Of a stretch of DNA of 64,000 bases, positions 10,401 through 51,938 are shown piece by piece. Position 1 is the first letter of the stretch; every line of letters begins with the position of its first letter. The stretch lies in the NCBI RefSeq assembly GCF_004349105.1, contig NZ_SMLB01000015.1, forward strand, positions 1 to 64,000. Direction: 5' to 3'. Under the pieces are notes generated by a model. The model saw only the letters and a program-made list of their open reading frames with translations. It was not told the origin of the DNA and searched no databases. The stretch is from Jiangella aurantiaca. GTDB taxonomy: Bacteria > Actinomycetota > Actinomycetes > Jiangellales > Jiangellaceae. The position numbers and the translations under genes are program-made.

Positions 10401-10574
10401 GCCGGTCACCGGCTCGCCGGCGTCGTGCAGCGTGGGTTCGGCGACCGGCGGGCCCGCGGCCCGGCTGGCGGCACGTCGGCGGCGCGGCTGCGCCGGCTCG
10501 GTGCCGGTCGCGTCGGCCGGGGCCGGCGCTGGCGAGGTGGTATCTCCGGGCGAACCGGGTGTCTCTTCCTGCAT
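7434..10574 (-). CDS. rne: Rne/Rng family ribonuclease (RNase E/G)
   Basis: A 1046-residue endoribonuclease for mRNA decay and rRNA processing. The catalytic region lies roughly at residues 430-860: an S1 domain (GNVYLGRVQNVLPAMEAAF, about 455), an RNase H-like and DNase I-like core with IVIDFIDM (about 759) carrying a metal-binding Asp, and the zinc-link CPHCKGRG (about 818). The long N-terminal extension has a Lys/Ala repeat region (KKTAKKASAKKTAAKK) and alternating acidic and Arg-rich blocks; the C-terminal tail is Pro/Ala rich. Such arms are typical of actinobacterial RNase E. I prefer the ATG of MQEETPG, with AGGAG 8 nt upstream, over a GTG three codons earlier. Confidence 0.95.
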   Translation of the reverse strand: MQEETPGSPGDTTSPAPAPADATGTEPAQPRRRRAASRAAGPPVAEPTLHDAGEPVTGDDAPAAPAKKTAKKASAKKTAAKKTAKKAPAKKAAARKAAATEAGAGLLAVEDPVAEAAVAEAEVAVAASVADAPAAEEAPVIEEAPAPRKRSRSRKAAQPAPEPLPAVADAQTADAEDETSAAALADPHPAFAPSGTESEATEARASAVLFQPPTFSAAPLFAAPDPEAAQPARGRRRAKPEPEPEPEVEVEETEEELETTAAADDSDDDGDGEGDGTRRRRRRRGGRGRRRRSDDSADSGDDDSDDEHGRSESDDHGDDGADDAQGESDDDQADTDEGGTRRRRRRRRRRNDDGDEPRPDDPPNTVVRVRDGRELDDEVTSVKGSTRLEAKKQRRREGREAGRRRPPILSEAEFLARREAVDRVMAVRQSGDLTQIAVLEDDVLVEHYVSRTSQQSLIGNVYLGRVQNVLPAMEAAFVDIGRGRNAVLYAGEVDWSGLGKSDGPKRIEDVLKSGQPVLVQVTKDPIGHKGARLTSQVSLPGRYVVYVPGGSMNGISRKLPDTERTRLKKILKQVVPEDAGVIVRTAAEGASEEELTNDVARLKDEWEALQKKASSGNAPQLLHGEPDLAIKVVRDLFNEDFTKLVVSGNSAWDTIEEYVSSVAGSLRDRVEKWTGTDDVFAAYRIDEQIAKAMDRKVWLPSGGSLVIDRTEAMTVVDVNTGKFTGSGGNLEETVTKNNLEAAEEIVRQLRLRDIGGIIVIDFIDMVLEANRDLVLRRLVECLGRDRTKHQVAEVTSLGLVQMTRKRIGTGLLEAFSEPCPHCKGRGLLLHTHPVESGNGSSGGSSGSDEGRSSRSERRGRRRKAEPAPSPQPVEGLTPKLEALASPGEASPADLMPVGANGNGIGGQQPDEPAAVSEADATTEADASTTESGAAATAAEQPAPTGRRRRAVRAAGSATTAAEPAAATGDTDAASTSESGATSSATPPPPPPPPPAETLMTGPAQVEAAATGQPAATPPPADEPTTEPVRPRRTRRRAERPAGSPVP

Positions 10575-16616: not shown

Positions 16617-17686
16617 CGAAGACAGGCGACAGCCTCGCCCCCGAGCCCGGCAAGGTCGGCGGCGCCGACACCGACAAGCTGGCCGGCGGGTCGATCGAAA
16701 AGGAGTACGTCGACCACACCGCCATCGACTACTCCTCCTACGACGACGGTGGTGGTGGCGGCTACGGCGGCGGCGGTGGTGGCGGTGGCGGCTCCGAGGA
16801 CGTCGCGGACGAACCCACCCACGACGCGGCCGAGGACCCGTCCGCCGACGACCCGGCGGCCGAGCCGGAGGCCGAGGCCCCCGACGACCCGCTCTACGCC
16901 GACAGCGACGACGACGGCGACGACACCCCCGTCACCGACGACTTCGGCGACACCGAGCACCCCACCAAGCCCGGCGACCCAGAGGTCGACGAGCCGGTGC
17001 TCGAGCAGCCCGAGCAGCCGCAGCCGCCGAACACCACGGTCTCCATCGACGTCGAGGCGATGACCCGGCTGGTCGCGGCCATGGAGCGGGCCGGCGAGCA
17101 GATCGTGTCGCTGCAGGACGAGATGCGCACCATCCTGTCCGGCGTGCACCTCGACACCTCCGACACGGCGCGATTCGACCAGGTCGCGGACTGGATCCAG
17201 GAGGTGCTGCCCGGCCTGCGGCGCCGCCTGGCCATGGCGCAGGACCTGCTCGGCGAGGGCGGCGGCGGCACGCAGCCGACCGAGCACCGCCCGCTGCCGC
17301 GCCCGTACGTCGGCGACGAGTCGCAGATCAGCACCAAGCCGGTGCAAGAGTCCTACGACGCCGCCCGCACCACCGCCCACCGCTTCGGCGTCCCCGGCGA
17401 CCACGAGACGACGCGCGAGCTGGTCGCCGACCTCCGGGCCAACCGGCACGACCCGTACTACGCGCGCGAGCTGGTCCACACCACGGATCCCGAGACGCTG
17501 GTGCGGGCCGTCGTCCACGCCGGCGACGACGAACTGGCGCAGCTCACCGCCGCGACGGTGGCCACGGCCGCCCGCGGCACCGGCGAGCTGGCGCCGCCAG
17601 CCGGTTACGAGGAGCAGTGGGCGGCGCTGCGCGAGAGCGACGACCCCGCCGTGGCGGCCGCCGCCGAGCAGCTGCGCCCGGCCTGA
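16613..17686 (+). CDS. large type VII-like substrate paralogue with Gly-rich acidic linker
   Basis: A 357-residue protein. After a short head, a glycine tract near residues 44-60 and a long Asp/Glu/Pro region lead into a helical domain. SLQDEMRTILSGVHL and EVLPGLRRRLAMAQDLL correspond to TELPGVRRRLSLAESLE of the 698-residue protein at 19015-21111, and TAARGTGELAPPAGYEEQW to TATRNTGDLAMPAEYADQW. It therefore looks like a shortened paralogue that lacks the long C-terminal region. The GTG start couples it to the upstream small gene (GTGA). Function unknown; export is inferred from locus context. Confidence 0.6.
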   Translation: MTKTGDSLAPEPGKVGGADTDKLAGGSIEKEYVDHTAIDYSSYDDGGGGGYGGGGGGGGGSEDVADEPTHDAAEDPSADDPAAEPEAEAPDDPLYADSDDDGDDTPVTDDFGDTEHPTKPGDPEVDEPVLEQPEQPQPPNTTVSIDVEAMTRLVAAMERAGEQIVSLQDEMRTILSGVHLDTSDTARFDQVADWIQEVLPGLRRRLAMAQDLLGEGGGGTQPTEHRPLPRPYVGDESQISTKPVQESYDAARTTAHRFGVPGDHETTRELVADLRANRHDPYYARELVHTTDPETLVRAVVHAGDDELAQLTAATVATAARGTGELAPPAGYEEQWAALRESDDPAVAAAAEQLRPA

Positions 17687-17734
17687 ACACACGTCAGCCG
17701 GGTTCCGGGGGTGTCGGACCAGGCGTTCTCCCGC

Positions 17735-17760
17735 TTCACCAGCCAGATGCATCTGGTGAA
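17735..17760 (+). terminator. hairpin after plus-strand substrate cassette
   Basis: TTCACCAG pairs with CTGGTGAA across a 10-nt loop, and the inner 14 nt is itself a palindrome. It lies 49 nt after the stop codon; no T tract follows. Confidence 0.35.
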
Positions 17761-17829
17761 CCGGGACACGCCTACTTCACCTGATCATTTCCGGCGCTTC
17801 TGCTGTTTCCGTGGGTCGGCGGGTCAGGG

Positions 17830-18107
17830 TTCACCGGGTGTGCGGTTCGCCGGTTTTCGTGGCGTTCGTCCTCCCCCTGCTGCCCCATTCTCTTGCCGCG
17901 AACGGCCAGCGATCAGGGGACGGGGCGAGTCTGGGCACACCTCGAGGTGCCGTGGCGTGCACCTGCCGCCTGTGGGCAGCCGTGATCATCAAGGATCGCC
18001 TACATCACCAGGATGTCTGCAGCCTCACCACGATCGCAGGCGTAGTGAGGCTCCAGAAAACGTCGTGACGTGCCCCAGATCACGGCGAGATCTCACCACG
18101 TGGACGC
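17830..18107 (+). repeat. dispersed intergenic repeat, copy A
   Basis: About 278 bp matching the minus strand of 36883-37257 along most of its length, including GACGGGGCGAGTCTGGGCAC near 17920. The last 105 bp (from 18003) form a core shared with three other places. The core starts CATCACCAGGAT, contains GCAGGCGTAGTG and CTCCAGAAAAC, and ends in TCTCACCACGTGGAC. No gene is recognised in 17687-18439. Confidence 0.8.
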
Positions 18108-18143
18108 AGTGGAGAACCGGCGACGCCTCGCCCGTCGCCAACA

Positions 18144-18216
18144 CCCGTCCCGTCCCCTTGTTAGCGCCAAGGGCCGCGGAGGCGCGGGTACGCGGCCAAG
18201 ACCATCGGGCAGCAGG
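18144..18216 (-). repeat. dispersed intergenic repeat, partial copy E
   Basis: The plus strand here resembles the plus strand of 37073-37213, so it is inverted relative to copy A. Shared pieces include CGTCCC then TTAG and GCGGCCAAGA then GGGCAGCAGG. It lacks the 68-bp hairpin segment of copy B. With copy A it forms an imperfect long inverted repeat. Confidence 0.55.
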
Positions 18217-18333
18217 AGATGGGGCGGTGTGGCGACGGGCCGGGCGCCCCGGTCGGCGACGCGGCGCGAGCGGTGGGGCCGCCGGATTCCATGATCAACG
18301 CAACGGTGTGAGGTTGCTGTCGTCGGTTGGGGC

Positions 18334-18398
18334 CATCACCACGATCACCCCAGCGTCGACACGATTGCAGGCGTAGTACGACACGAAATTCCGTGGTG
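18334..18398 (+). repeat. dispersed intergenic repeat, short core copy D
   Basis: Core only: CATCACC, then GTCGACACGATTGCAGGCGT, then diverging. It is in the orientation of copy A and keeps the same short reading frame (HHHDHPSVDTIAGVV). Confidence 0.6.
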
Positions 18399-18439
18399 AA
18401 CGTGATCATCTAGGCGCCGGACGAGGCCAGGCGCGCACG

Positions 18440-36804: not shown

Positions 36805-36882
36805 GCCCGAAATGAACTCGTAGACACGATCCGTGGGTCGGTCACGTCGGGTTCGCCGGGGGTGCGGCGTCGGCCGGCGCTG

Positions 36883-37257
36883 GGTGTCCACGTAGTGAGA
36901 TTTCACCGTGATTCGCGAGCCACCACCAGGTTTTCTGGTGCTCCACCACGCCTGCAATCGTGTCGAGGCTCAGGTAATCCTGGTGATGTACGCGATCGTT
37001 GATGATCAACGCTGTCCACAGGCACCGACGGCACACCGAACCACGCCGGCGCACATCGAGGTGTGCCCAGACTCGCCCCGTCCCCCTGATAGCTGCCCGT
37101 TCTTAGGCACGGCAGCCGTGGGTCAAGTCCAAGCCCCCGACCACAGCGAAGCGCGACCACAGAGGCGCGGACTTGAGGCACGGGTGCGCGGCTAAGAGAA
37201 TGGGCAGCAGGGGGACGGCGACGGTACGAACCCGACCAACGGCACACCCGGCGAACG
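36883..37257 (-). repeat. dispersed intergenic repeat, copy B
   Basis: The longest copy, about 375 bp, lying between the ends of ndk and the DUF4233 gene. Its minus strand aligns with 17830-18107, with an extra segment of about 95 bp that includes the hairpin at 37116-37183. The core (36883-36988) reads CATCACCAGGATTACC at its start and keeps an open frame HHQDYLSLDTIAGVVEHQKT. Confidence 0.8.
37116..37183. repeat. hairpin segment inside repeat copy B
   Basis: CCGTGGGTCAAGTCC and GGACTTGAGGCACGG are inverted repeats (13 of 15 pairs) around 38 nt. The segment is absent from copies A and E, so it looks like an insertion into B or a deletion from the others. Confidence 0.55.
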
Positions 37258-37261
37258 CCAC

Positions 37262-42577: not shown

Positions 42578-44961
<2,384 letters not shown>

Positions 44962-45005
44962 CTACCCAGCGGATGAGTGAGGGATCTGTGCTGCCCGAGC
45001 TACCC

Positions 45006-45112
45006 CATCACCAGGATTACCCGACCCTCAACACGATTGCAGGCATAGTGACGCTCCAGAAAACCCCATGATGGCCCCCGAAACGCCGTTGAAATCTCAC
45101 CACGTGGACACC
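45006..45112 (+). repeat. dispersed intergenic repeat, core copy C
   Basis: A 107-bp core: CATCACCAGGATTACC, then ACACGATTGCAGGCATAGTG, CTCCAGAAAACC, and AATCTCACCACGTGGACACC at the end. It keeps the frame HHQDYPTLNTIAGIVTLQKTP before a stop. No gene or further signal is seen in 44932-45149. Confidence 0.8.
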
Positions 45113-45149
45113 GGCGAACGGTGCCCTCACCCATCGCGAGAGCGGCGCC

Positions 45150-51702: not shown

Positions 51703-51938
51703 GACATCAGCCGGTCGGCCCACGCGGCGACACCTCCTTCGCACCACTCGGCAATCGGTCTGGACCGACAACTCGGCGGGACCTCCGGCCCCGCGTCGCC
51801 GTCGGTGCCGCATGAGCCTCCCTGGGGACATCAGCCGGTCGGCCCACGCGGCGACACCTCCTTCGCACCACTCGGCAATCGGTCTGGACCGACGACTCGG
51901 CGGGACCTCCCCGTCGGTGCCGCAGGAGCCTCCCTGGG
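51703..51938. repeat. tandem duplication of about 112-124 bp
   Basis: Unit 1 (51703-51826) and unit 2 (51827-51938) both begin GACATCAGCCGGTCGGCCCA and end GCCTCCCTGGG; unit 1 has 12 extra bases, and few other positions differ. Unit 2 encodes the last 35 or so residues of the class A-like hydrolase and its stop codon; unit 1 is non-coding between that stop and the M20 start. Confidence 0.92.

Follow-up and report, generated by a model that had tools for sequence, protein, structure and literature searches.

The closest described counterparts of the repeats studied here are the REP sequences and REPINs, which occur as many short intergenic palindromes, single or in inverted doublets, and are accompanied by one partner gene per genome that is bracketed by the same palindromes, with subfamilies that have their own enzyme. 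In one account (PMC3733652), REP-like repeats are tied to the HUH enzyme RAYT, GTAG and CGTC repeats are placed in phyla that exclude the Actinobacteria, and untagged REP-like sequences are mentioned in M. tuberculosis; the same account leaves open which enzyme serves the CGTC repeats and whether RAYT-less repeats have one of their own. Other relevant systems are MITEs, gene-less derivatives of DDE insertion sequences that share inverted ends with a gene-bearing unit, the I-Bth0305I and Vsr-like homing endonucleases, and the AbiE toxin-antitoxin systems, in which the AbiEi protein recognizes inverted repeats of its own promoter (PMC7319586).

The repeats of Jiangella aurantiaca and their partner gene resemble each of these in part. 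They share the features of the REP/REPIN-RAYT systems listed above, but the partner encodes an AbiEi-like domain joined to a Vsr-like nuclease instead of a RAYT (TnpA-REP, an HUH Y1 transposase), and the palindromes are longer (72-105 bp) and have no constant GTAG tag; of the 28 copies in alignment A2, 8 have CTAC/GTAG at the core's foot (counted by eye). A Y1 transposase (PF01797) was found in none of 22 genomes (12 of Jiangella, 2 others of the family, and 8 of the same class, G014-G021 lying outside the set), and a RAYT was rejected as the partner on this basis; the same family was found in 5 of 14 control genomes. By analogy, the system appears to work as REP/RAYT does, but it falls outside that class on both the Y1 enzyme and the GTAG tag. 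The gene-less doublets recall MITEs, although the Jiangella gene is no recognized transposase and no target-site duplication was seen. The nuclease has the fold of I-Bth0305I (3r3p, Z 12.1) and Vsr (1cw0, Z 10.2), but it is fused to the AbiEi-like domain, surrounded by inverted palindromes and, as far as seen, not intronic. Likewise, the N-terminal part resembles an AbiEi antitoxin (6y8q, Z 11.6; PF13338 in 14 of 14 proteins), whereas the C-terminal nuclease domain sets the protein apart from AbiE. Among the titles and opening lines of abstracts that searches of open-access papers listed, none links these nucleases to palindromes, a weak sign of novelty. To judge from the sequences, the repeats and the nuclease seem to represent a so far undescribed class of mobile DNA that has a dedicated enzyme.

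The window copies and their palindromic core

The window is a stretch of 64,000 nucleotides of J. aurantiaca, whose genome (G000; 6,620,775 bases in 102 contigs) was analyzed within a comparison set of 22 Jiangellaceae genomes, 12 of them Jiangella. A first-pass annotation of the window had described four dispersed repeat copies, and a profile of the 72-bp core recovers all of them at the same places and on the same strands (E 3e-20 to 9e-15). By reading, they lie between genes, as had been stated, in the gaps at 17687-18439, 36805-37261, and 44932-45149. Copy 1 (17983-18104, plus strand; nhmmer E 2.5e-37) has a left module, TGATCATCAAGGATCGC, preceded by CTGTGGGCAGC, then the palindromic core (18001-18072; profile hit at 18001-18071, plus strand, E 5e-20) and a right module that ends in CTCACCACGTGGAC. 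Copy 2 (about 18332-18411, minus strand) is a solo palindrome of the unit-end type that starts with GATGATCACGTTCACCA on the minus strand; the profile places its core at 18334-18402 on the plus strand (E 9e-15). Copy 3 (36886-37023, minus strand; nhmmer E 5.5e-34; core at 36920-36990, minus strand) combines the core palindrome, left and right modules, and a CTGTCCACAG stretch, and copy 4 (44996-45108, plus strand; nhmmer E 6.2e-27; core at 45006-45074, plus strand) has the core palindrome and the right module.

The annotation had also proposed a longer element common to two of the copies, and we find it at sites A and B as two pairs of inverted arms, 17968-18105/36886-37023 (78% identity) and 17916-17959/37042-37085 (91%). 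The second pair belongs to another palindromic module, read as running from CCCCCTGCTGCCCATTCTCTTAGCC to AAGAACGGGCAGCTATCAGGGGGACGGGG, which is joined to copy 3 on the minus strand (37024-37260) and whose right half reappears, inverted, left of copy 1. This large module (CCCCCTGATAGCTGCCCGTTCTTAG...; 17916-17959 and 37024-37260) is itself repeated in many copies in the same genome, and no partner gene was found for it.

A fifth window copy, considered at 17718-17742, was rejected as nonsignificant (core profile E 0.95). A hairpin-like stretch at 17718-17790 (CAGGCGTTCTCCCGCTTCACCAGCCAGATGCATCTGGTGAACC...TGATCATTTC) is similar to solo palindromes of G003 and G007. Elsewhere in the window, two 84-bp direct repeats with 99% identity lie at 51703-51910, 124 bases from start to start, and ARAGORN calls tRNA-Ala(cgc) at 10421-10518 and tRNA-Asp(gtc) at 16843-16942; both calls are probably false, as Rfam at its gathering score finds a tRNA only at 496-568.

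The 72-bp core matches its own reverse complement, as hits on the second strand show; it is a near-palindrome, a property that the annotation had missed. In an alignment of 62 such 72-mers drawn from several genomes, 73.5% of cells obey mirror pairing, and the covariation score is 0.156, compared with 0.098 (standard deviation 0.006) in shuffles and at most 0.063 with partners slid; one mirror pair occurs equally often, 24 times each, as C-G and as G-C. Of the five covariation measures, two were level with shuffles, namely pairs changed on both sides (19 versus 17.3, with 89 of 500 shuffles as high) and further pair types (48 versus 44.1; 44 of 500).

The four copies had been reported to share a short open reading frame. 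The frame is indeed open in all four, but copy 2 has a different form, in which the frame departs after IAGVV. Over 33 copies from the window's own genome, the synonymous share of single-base codon differences in that frame, 0.218, lies between the values of the other two forward frames (0.144 and 0.290), and the third codon positions of the frame are the least variable, which speaks against the suggested debris of a short gene, as does the finding that paired changes in the arms alter the frame's reading between genomes. We attribute the conservation of the core to mirror pairing with covariation and not to coding. The alternative suggestion of a structured RNA has something in its favor, since the folds of copies 1 and 3 are somewhat more stable than those of shuffles (z -2.0 and -2.3), but those of copies 2 and 4 are not (z -0.2 and 1.0), and Rfam reports no family over its gathering score in the window besides the tRNA. 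The whole element is a palindrome and also forms the ends of the gene-bearing units described below, which makes DNA a likelier level of action than a transcript. That the repeat is a short gene, its remnant, or a structured RNA seems highly improbable to us.

Copy number and site occupancy

A lack of further copies in the genome, which the annotation had named as a refutation, is not what we find; there are many, well above chance. A 143-bp query finds at least 56 places in the window's own genome (mirror hits included; 40 of 139 candidates scored). In 360 kb of contig C14 of that genome, 17 separate copies match the 72-bp profile at E < 1e-3, besides the 4 in the window. Matches to model R1, which was built from 28 copies and whose counts include mirror hits, number at least 150 each in G000, G002, and G006, 135 in G001, 124 in G011, 95 in G007, 21 in G005, 10 in G003, 8 in G008, and 0 in G004, G009, and G010.

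Synteny of the window with seven relatives allows the sites to be compared. Site C (44972-45149), occupied by copy 4 in the window, is empty in G008, G003, and G006 and holds other sequences in G001 and G011. By eye, copy 4 apparently splits a host hairpin (44974-45140), composed of TGAGTGAGGGATCTGTG (44974-44990) and GCCCTCACCCATCGCGAG (45123-45140), and the alignment, also read by eye, has a similar unsplit hairpin in G011. At site A, the distance between the aligned blocks is about 730 bases in the window and 32 bases in G001; the neighboring gene is missing in the other relatives. Site B (36805-37261), 3' of ndk (PF00334), occurs in four states across 12 genomes, namely empty, solo, composite, and hairpin-gene-hairpin. 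Between the end of ndk and the next-gene anchor, G009 and G010, where the site is empty, have 53-62 bases; G003 and G006, which hold a solo palindrome of another type, have 200-208; the window, with its composite repeat, has 509; and 7 of 12 Jiangella, where a nuclease gene is bracketed by GATGGCGGGTGGTTCGGTGG palindromes, have 1147-1295. Insertion into G+C-rich palindromes such as terminator loops is plausible by eye, and we rejected it on the basis of 15 solos, in which flank complementarity is 6.50, compared with 6.37 for swapped flanks, with 407 of 1000 permutations as high.

The nuclease gene and its palindromic ends

The leads to a partner gene were the site B gene of the relatives and a paralog in contig C14, with palindromes on either side; the C14 protein matches AbiEi_4 with 28 bits (cut-off, 25) and DUF559 below the cut-off. 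The gene bracketed by the window's own palindrome was identified in G001 (L177), where the palindrome flanks it on both sides in inverted orientation (profile E 6.6e-6 and 3.6e-4). Close homologs of the L177 protein (E < 1e-90) occur once per genome in 15 of 22 Jiangellaceae genomes; the one in the window's own genome lies at C93:4121-5068, that of G008 is interrupted by an in-frame stop, and the next best matches stand at about 1e-30. The palindrome lies upstream of this cognate gene in 15 of 15 cases, and an inverted copy lies downstream in 13, L204 and L215 having no 3' end. In G001 the unit sits beside a PAC2 gene and a class I synthetase-like gene, presumably mshC, and by reading the same neighbors recur around the unit in most Jiangella genomes and in two from another genus, with a flipped unit in G001 and G003. 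Between these neighbors, the unit in L201 and L209 is read in the orientation opposite to that in L202-L208, in different species, as if it had turned between its inverted ends.

The window copies relate to this unit in two ways. Compared with the two ends of the nuclease unit, copy 2 is 85-86% identical in its own genome, 87-90% in G002, and 72-81% in G006. The hairpin of copies 1, 3, and 4 is common to the nuclease-unit ends, and copies 1 and 3 have 13-14 further bases around CTGTCCACAG in common with them (E 0.005-0.19), a match that is too short to stand alone. By short exact words, neither the second palindromic module nor the right module occurs in the Jiangellaceae nuclease-unit loci examined; copies 1, 3, and 4 are best read as composites related to the 5' end of the unit rather than as simple deletions.

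The cognate gene, of about 320 codons, encodes an AbiEi-like DNA-binding domain fused to a Vsr/I-Bth0305I-like PD-(D/E)XK nuclease. In the AlphaFold model of the J. rhizosphaerae protein (mean pLDDT 94.3), residues 1-198 match AbiEi as given above, residues 1-211 match Rv2827c (1zel, Z 9.2), and residues 203-314 match I-Bth0305I (3r3p_A, Z 12.1, rmsd 2.5, 97 of 97 residues) as well as Vsr; VIA-align rows under Z 8, TnsA (Z 6.7) among them, were left aside. The residues E206, D238, E249, D251, K255, E273, and K274 are invariant in 71 sequences and are candidates for the PD-(D/E)XK catalytic residues. AbiEi_4 (PF13338) is found at E <= 0.1 in all 14 cognate proteins (40.2 bits in L201, with a cut-off of 25), DUF559 (PF04480) in none of the 14 at the same E value, and three paralogs in the window's own genome pass the DUF559 gathering score. 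Neither a sequence search of solved structures with A4 nor NCBIfam gave a match, and PADLOC assigned only AbiEi models, to 14 of 14 cognate proteins.

Bracketing by palindromes extends to the paralogs, whose alignment is homologous to that of the cognate proteins (hhalign probability, 99.1). Each of the 12 Jiangella genomes has 5-23 matched nuclease-gene stretches, fragments included. Among 69 paralog loci (30 returned by the search and 39 picked from the list, with one duplicate dropped), palindromes scoring at least 12 lie upstream in 46, downstream in 51, and on both sides in 38, compared with 4.4%, 4.2%, and 0.2% of random C14 anchors; the other 31 have no palindrome on one or both sides at this threshold. 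Where asymmetry permits telling (L133, L141, and L156), the 5' and 3' palindromes are reverse complements of each other. Different paralog groups have different palindromes, and the GTTGATCATGGAG palindrome that brackets another of these groups occurs 71 times in G000, 105 times in G008, and 88 times in G001, frequently in mirror pairs with a spacing of about 41 bases.

Flank similarity of at least 18 is found in 63 of 81 Jiangellaceae units, compared with 20 of 405 swapped ones. Beyond the family, the best 80 of 449 confirmed relatives were kept, of which 78 have long enough flanks. The upstream flank scores at least 18 against the reversed downstream flank in 43 of these 78 actinobacterial loci, versus 7 of 468 swapped pairs, and in 38 of 72 after removal of six Jiangellaceae-like loci (L251-L255 and L257). 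Similarity in direct orientation is also raised (36 of 78 at the same score), because palindromes match both ways, so that inversion is read in single loci only. Host genera include Kribbella, Nocardioides, Geodermatophilus, Blastococcus, Pseudonocardia, Nocardia, and Rhodococcus. A putative DnaA box, T[TC][ACG]TCCACA, occurs in sense orientation no more than 200 bases ahead of the gene in 60 of 83 Jiangellaceae units and in 26 of 73 others; the expected background, estimated from 424 kb, is 0.0037 per 210 nt. The DnaA-box-like TTGTCCACA of these 60 Jiangellaceae genes is seen, for example, before position 1501 of L205.

Solo palindromes and the units of their own genomes

Hairpins bracket the gene, solos carry the end variant of the unit in their own genome, and sites are filled or empty between relatives. 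The second of these observations comes from counts in 22 genomes. Pattern 1, AATGATCAYGTN{0,8}CACCA (AATGATCAYGT..CACCA type), has 75 sites in G003, 20 in G018, 18 in G001, 13 in G002, 12 in G006, 11 in G011, 7 in G016, 5 in G000, 2 each in G014 and G013, 1 in G020, and 0 in the other 11, the reversed control giving 0 in all 22. Sites with AATGATCATGT number 173 in G019, 137 in G021, 107 in G016, 88 in G012, and 80 in G015, whose own units end likewise, and 26 in G020, 3 in G018, 2 in G017, 0 in G013 and G014, and 0-2 in each of the 12 Jiangella, with 1 control match over all genomes. Among the matches listed, the solos of G021 are mostly AATGATCATGTAAACCAT, the unit there having AATGATCATGTAAACCAG, and those of G016 are mostly TTCACTTG or TTCACTAG, the unit having TTCACTTG. 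The four Jiangella genomes without the cognate gene have no site by pattern 1, and R1 counts are higher in the seven Jiangella with an intact gene than in the five that lack it or have a stop (exact one-sided probability 0.0025, uncorrected for relatedness). There are exceptions: without a close homolog, G020 has its 26 AATGATCATGT sites, G013 its 2 pattern 1 sites, and G005 21 weaker R1 matches, and G007 has the gene, 95 R1 matches, and no pattern 1 site.

Among the solos examined, which had been chosen as mirror pairs, seven from G003 are 86-bp palindromes, and six from G001 and one from G002 are inverted doublets of 168-210 bp, that is, the unit minus its gene in the arrangement of a REPIN. 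Mirror pairs more than 700 bp apart in G003 surround ordinary genes. In the same genome, solos in opposed orientation flank single ordinary genes on both sides, and these genes read as ThyX-, M48-, and inositol monophosphatase-like (L231-L235).

These patterns bear on two other explanations. The palindromes could be operators or terminators of AbiEi-type regulators, with a defensive or regulatory nuclease and with copies spread by an unrelated transposase or by recombination. The PADLOC assignments and the binding of AbiEi proteins to inverted repeats in their own promoters (PMC7319586) are in line with this, but inverted copies stand at both ends of the gene, the solos follow the end variant of the unit genome by genome, and Y1, the sole transposase class searched for, is absent from the 22 genomes in that search. 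We consider this explanation unlikely. Still less likely, in our judgment, is a homing-like unit, whose nuclease would cut gene-less alleles so that repair copies the gene in, with solos as targets or as remnants of gene loss. The nuclease domain is closest to a homing endonuclease, and site B has a solo in G003 and G006 where seven relatives have hairpin-gene-hairpin, though with another type of palindrome; yet many solo sites stand against a single-copy cognate gene, and homing alone does not spread solos.

Proposed mode of movement and its meaning

Among the readings that the first-pass annotation had offered, we favor the nonautonomous mobile element, given the many copies, the variable sites, and the gene-bearing unit with matching ends. 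Specifically, we propose, with a probability of roughly 0.65, that the repeats are gene-less relatives of a palindrome-ended mobile unit and are mobilized by its nuclease. The gene-bearing member consists of a single gene with two inverted hairpin copies around it, usually preceded by a TTGTCCACA-like leader that resembles a DnaA box. The AbiEi domain would recognize the hairpin, the nuclease would cut or nick there, and repair or replication would then copy the unit and the solos into new intergenic sites, as is thought to happen for RAYT with REP/REPIN. A coupling to replication via the DnaA-box-like motif is speculation at this point.

In the broader form of this proposal, which we hold to be about evenly balanced between right and wrong, a distinct class of mobile DNA is common in Actinobacteria, in which an AbiEi-type DNA reader with a Vsr-like nuclease moves hairpin-ended DNA, including gene-less swarms, possibly timed to replication by the DnaA box of the leader; it would be a counterpart of RAYT/REPIN with unrelated chemistry. 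A single protein and a single hairpin now suffice to test which enzyme moves RAYT-less palindromes, because a functionally blank AbiEi plus Vsr-like family has matching end palindromes and solo populations in the same genomes. If the proposal is true, it would give a role to a large nuclease family, point to a compact hairpin-guided nuclease, and explain much of the repeated intergenic DNA in Jiangella.
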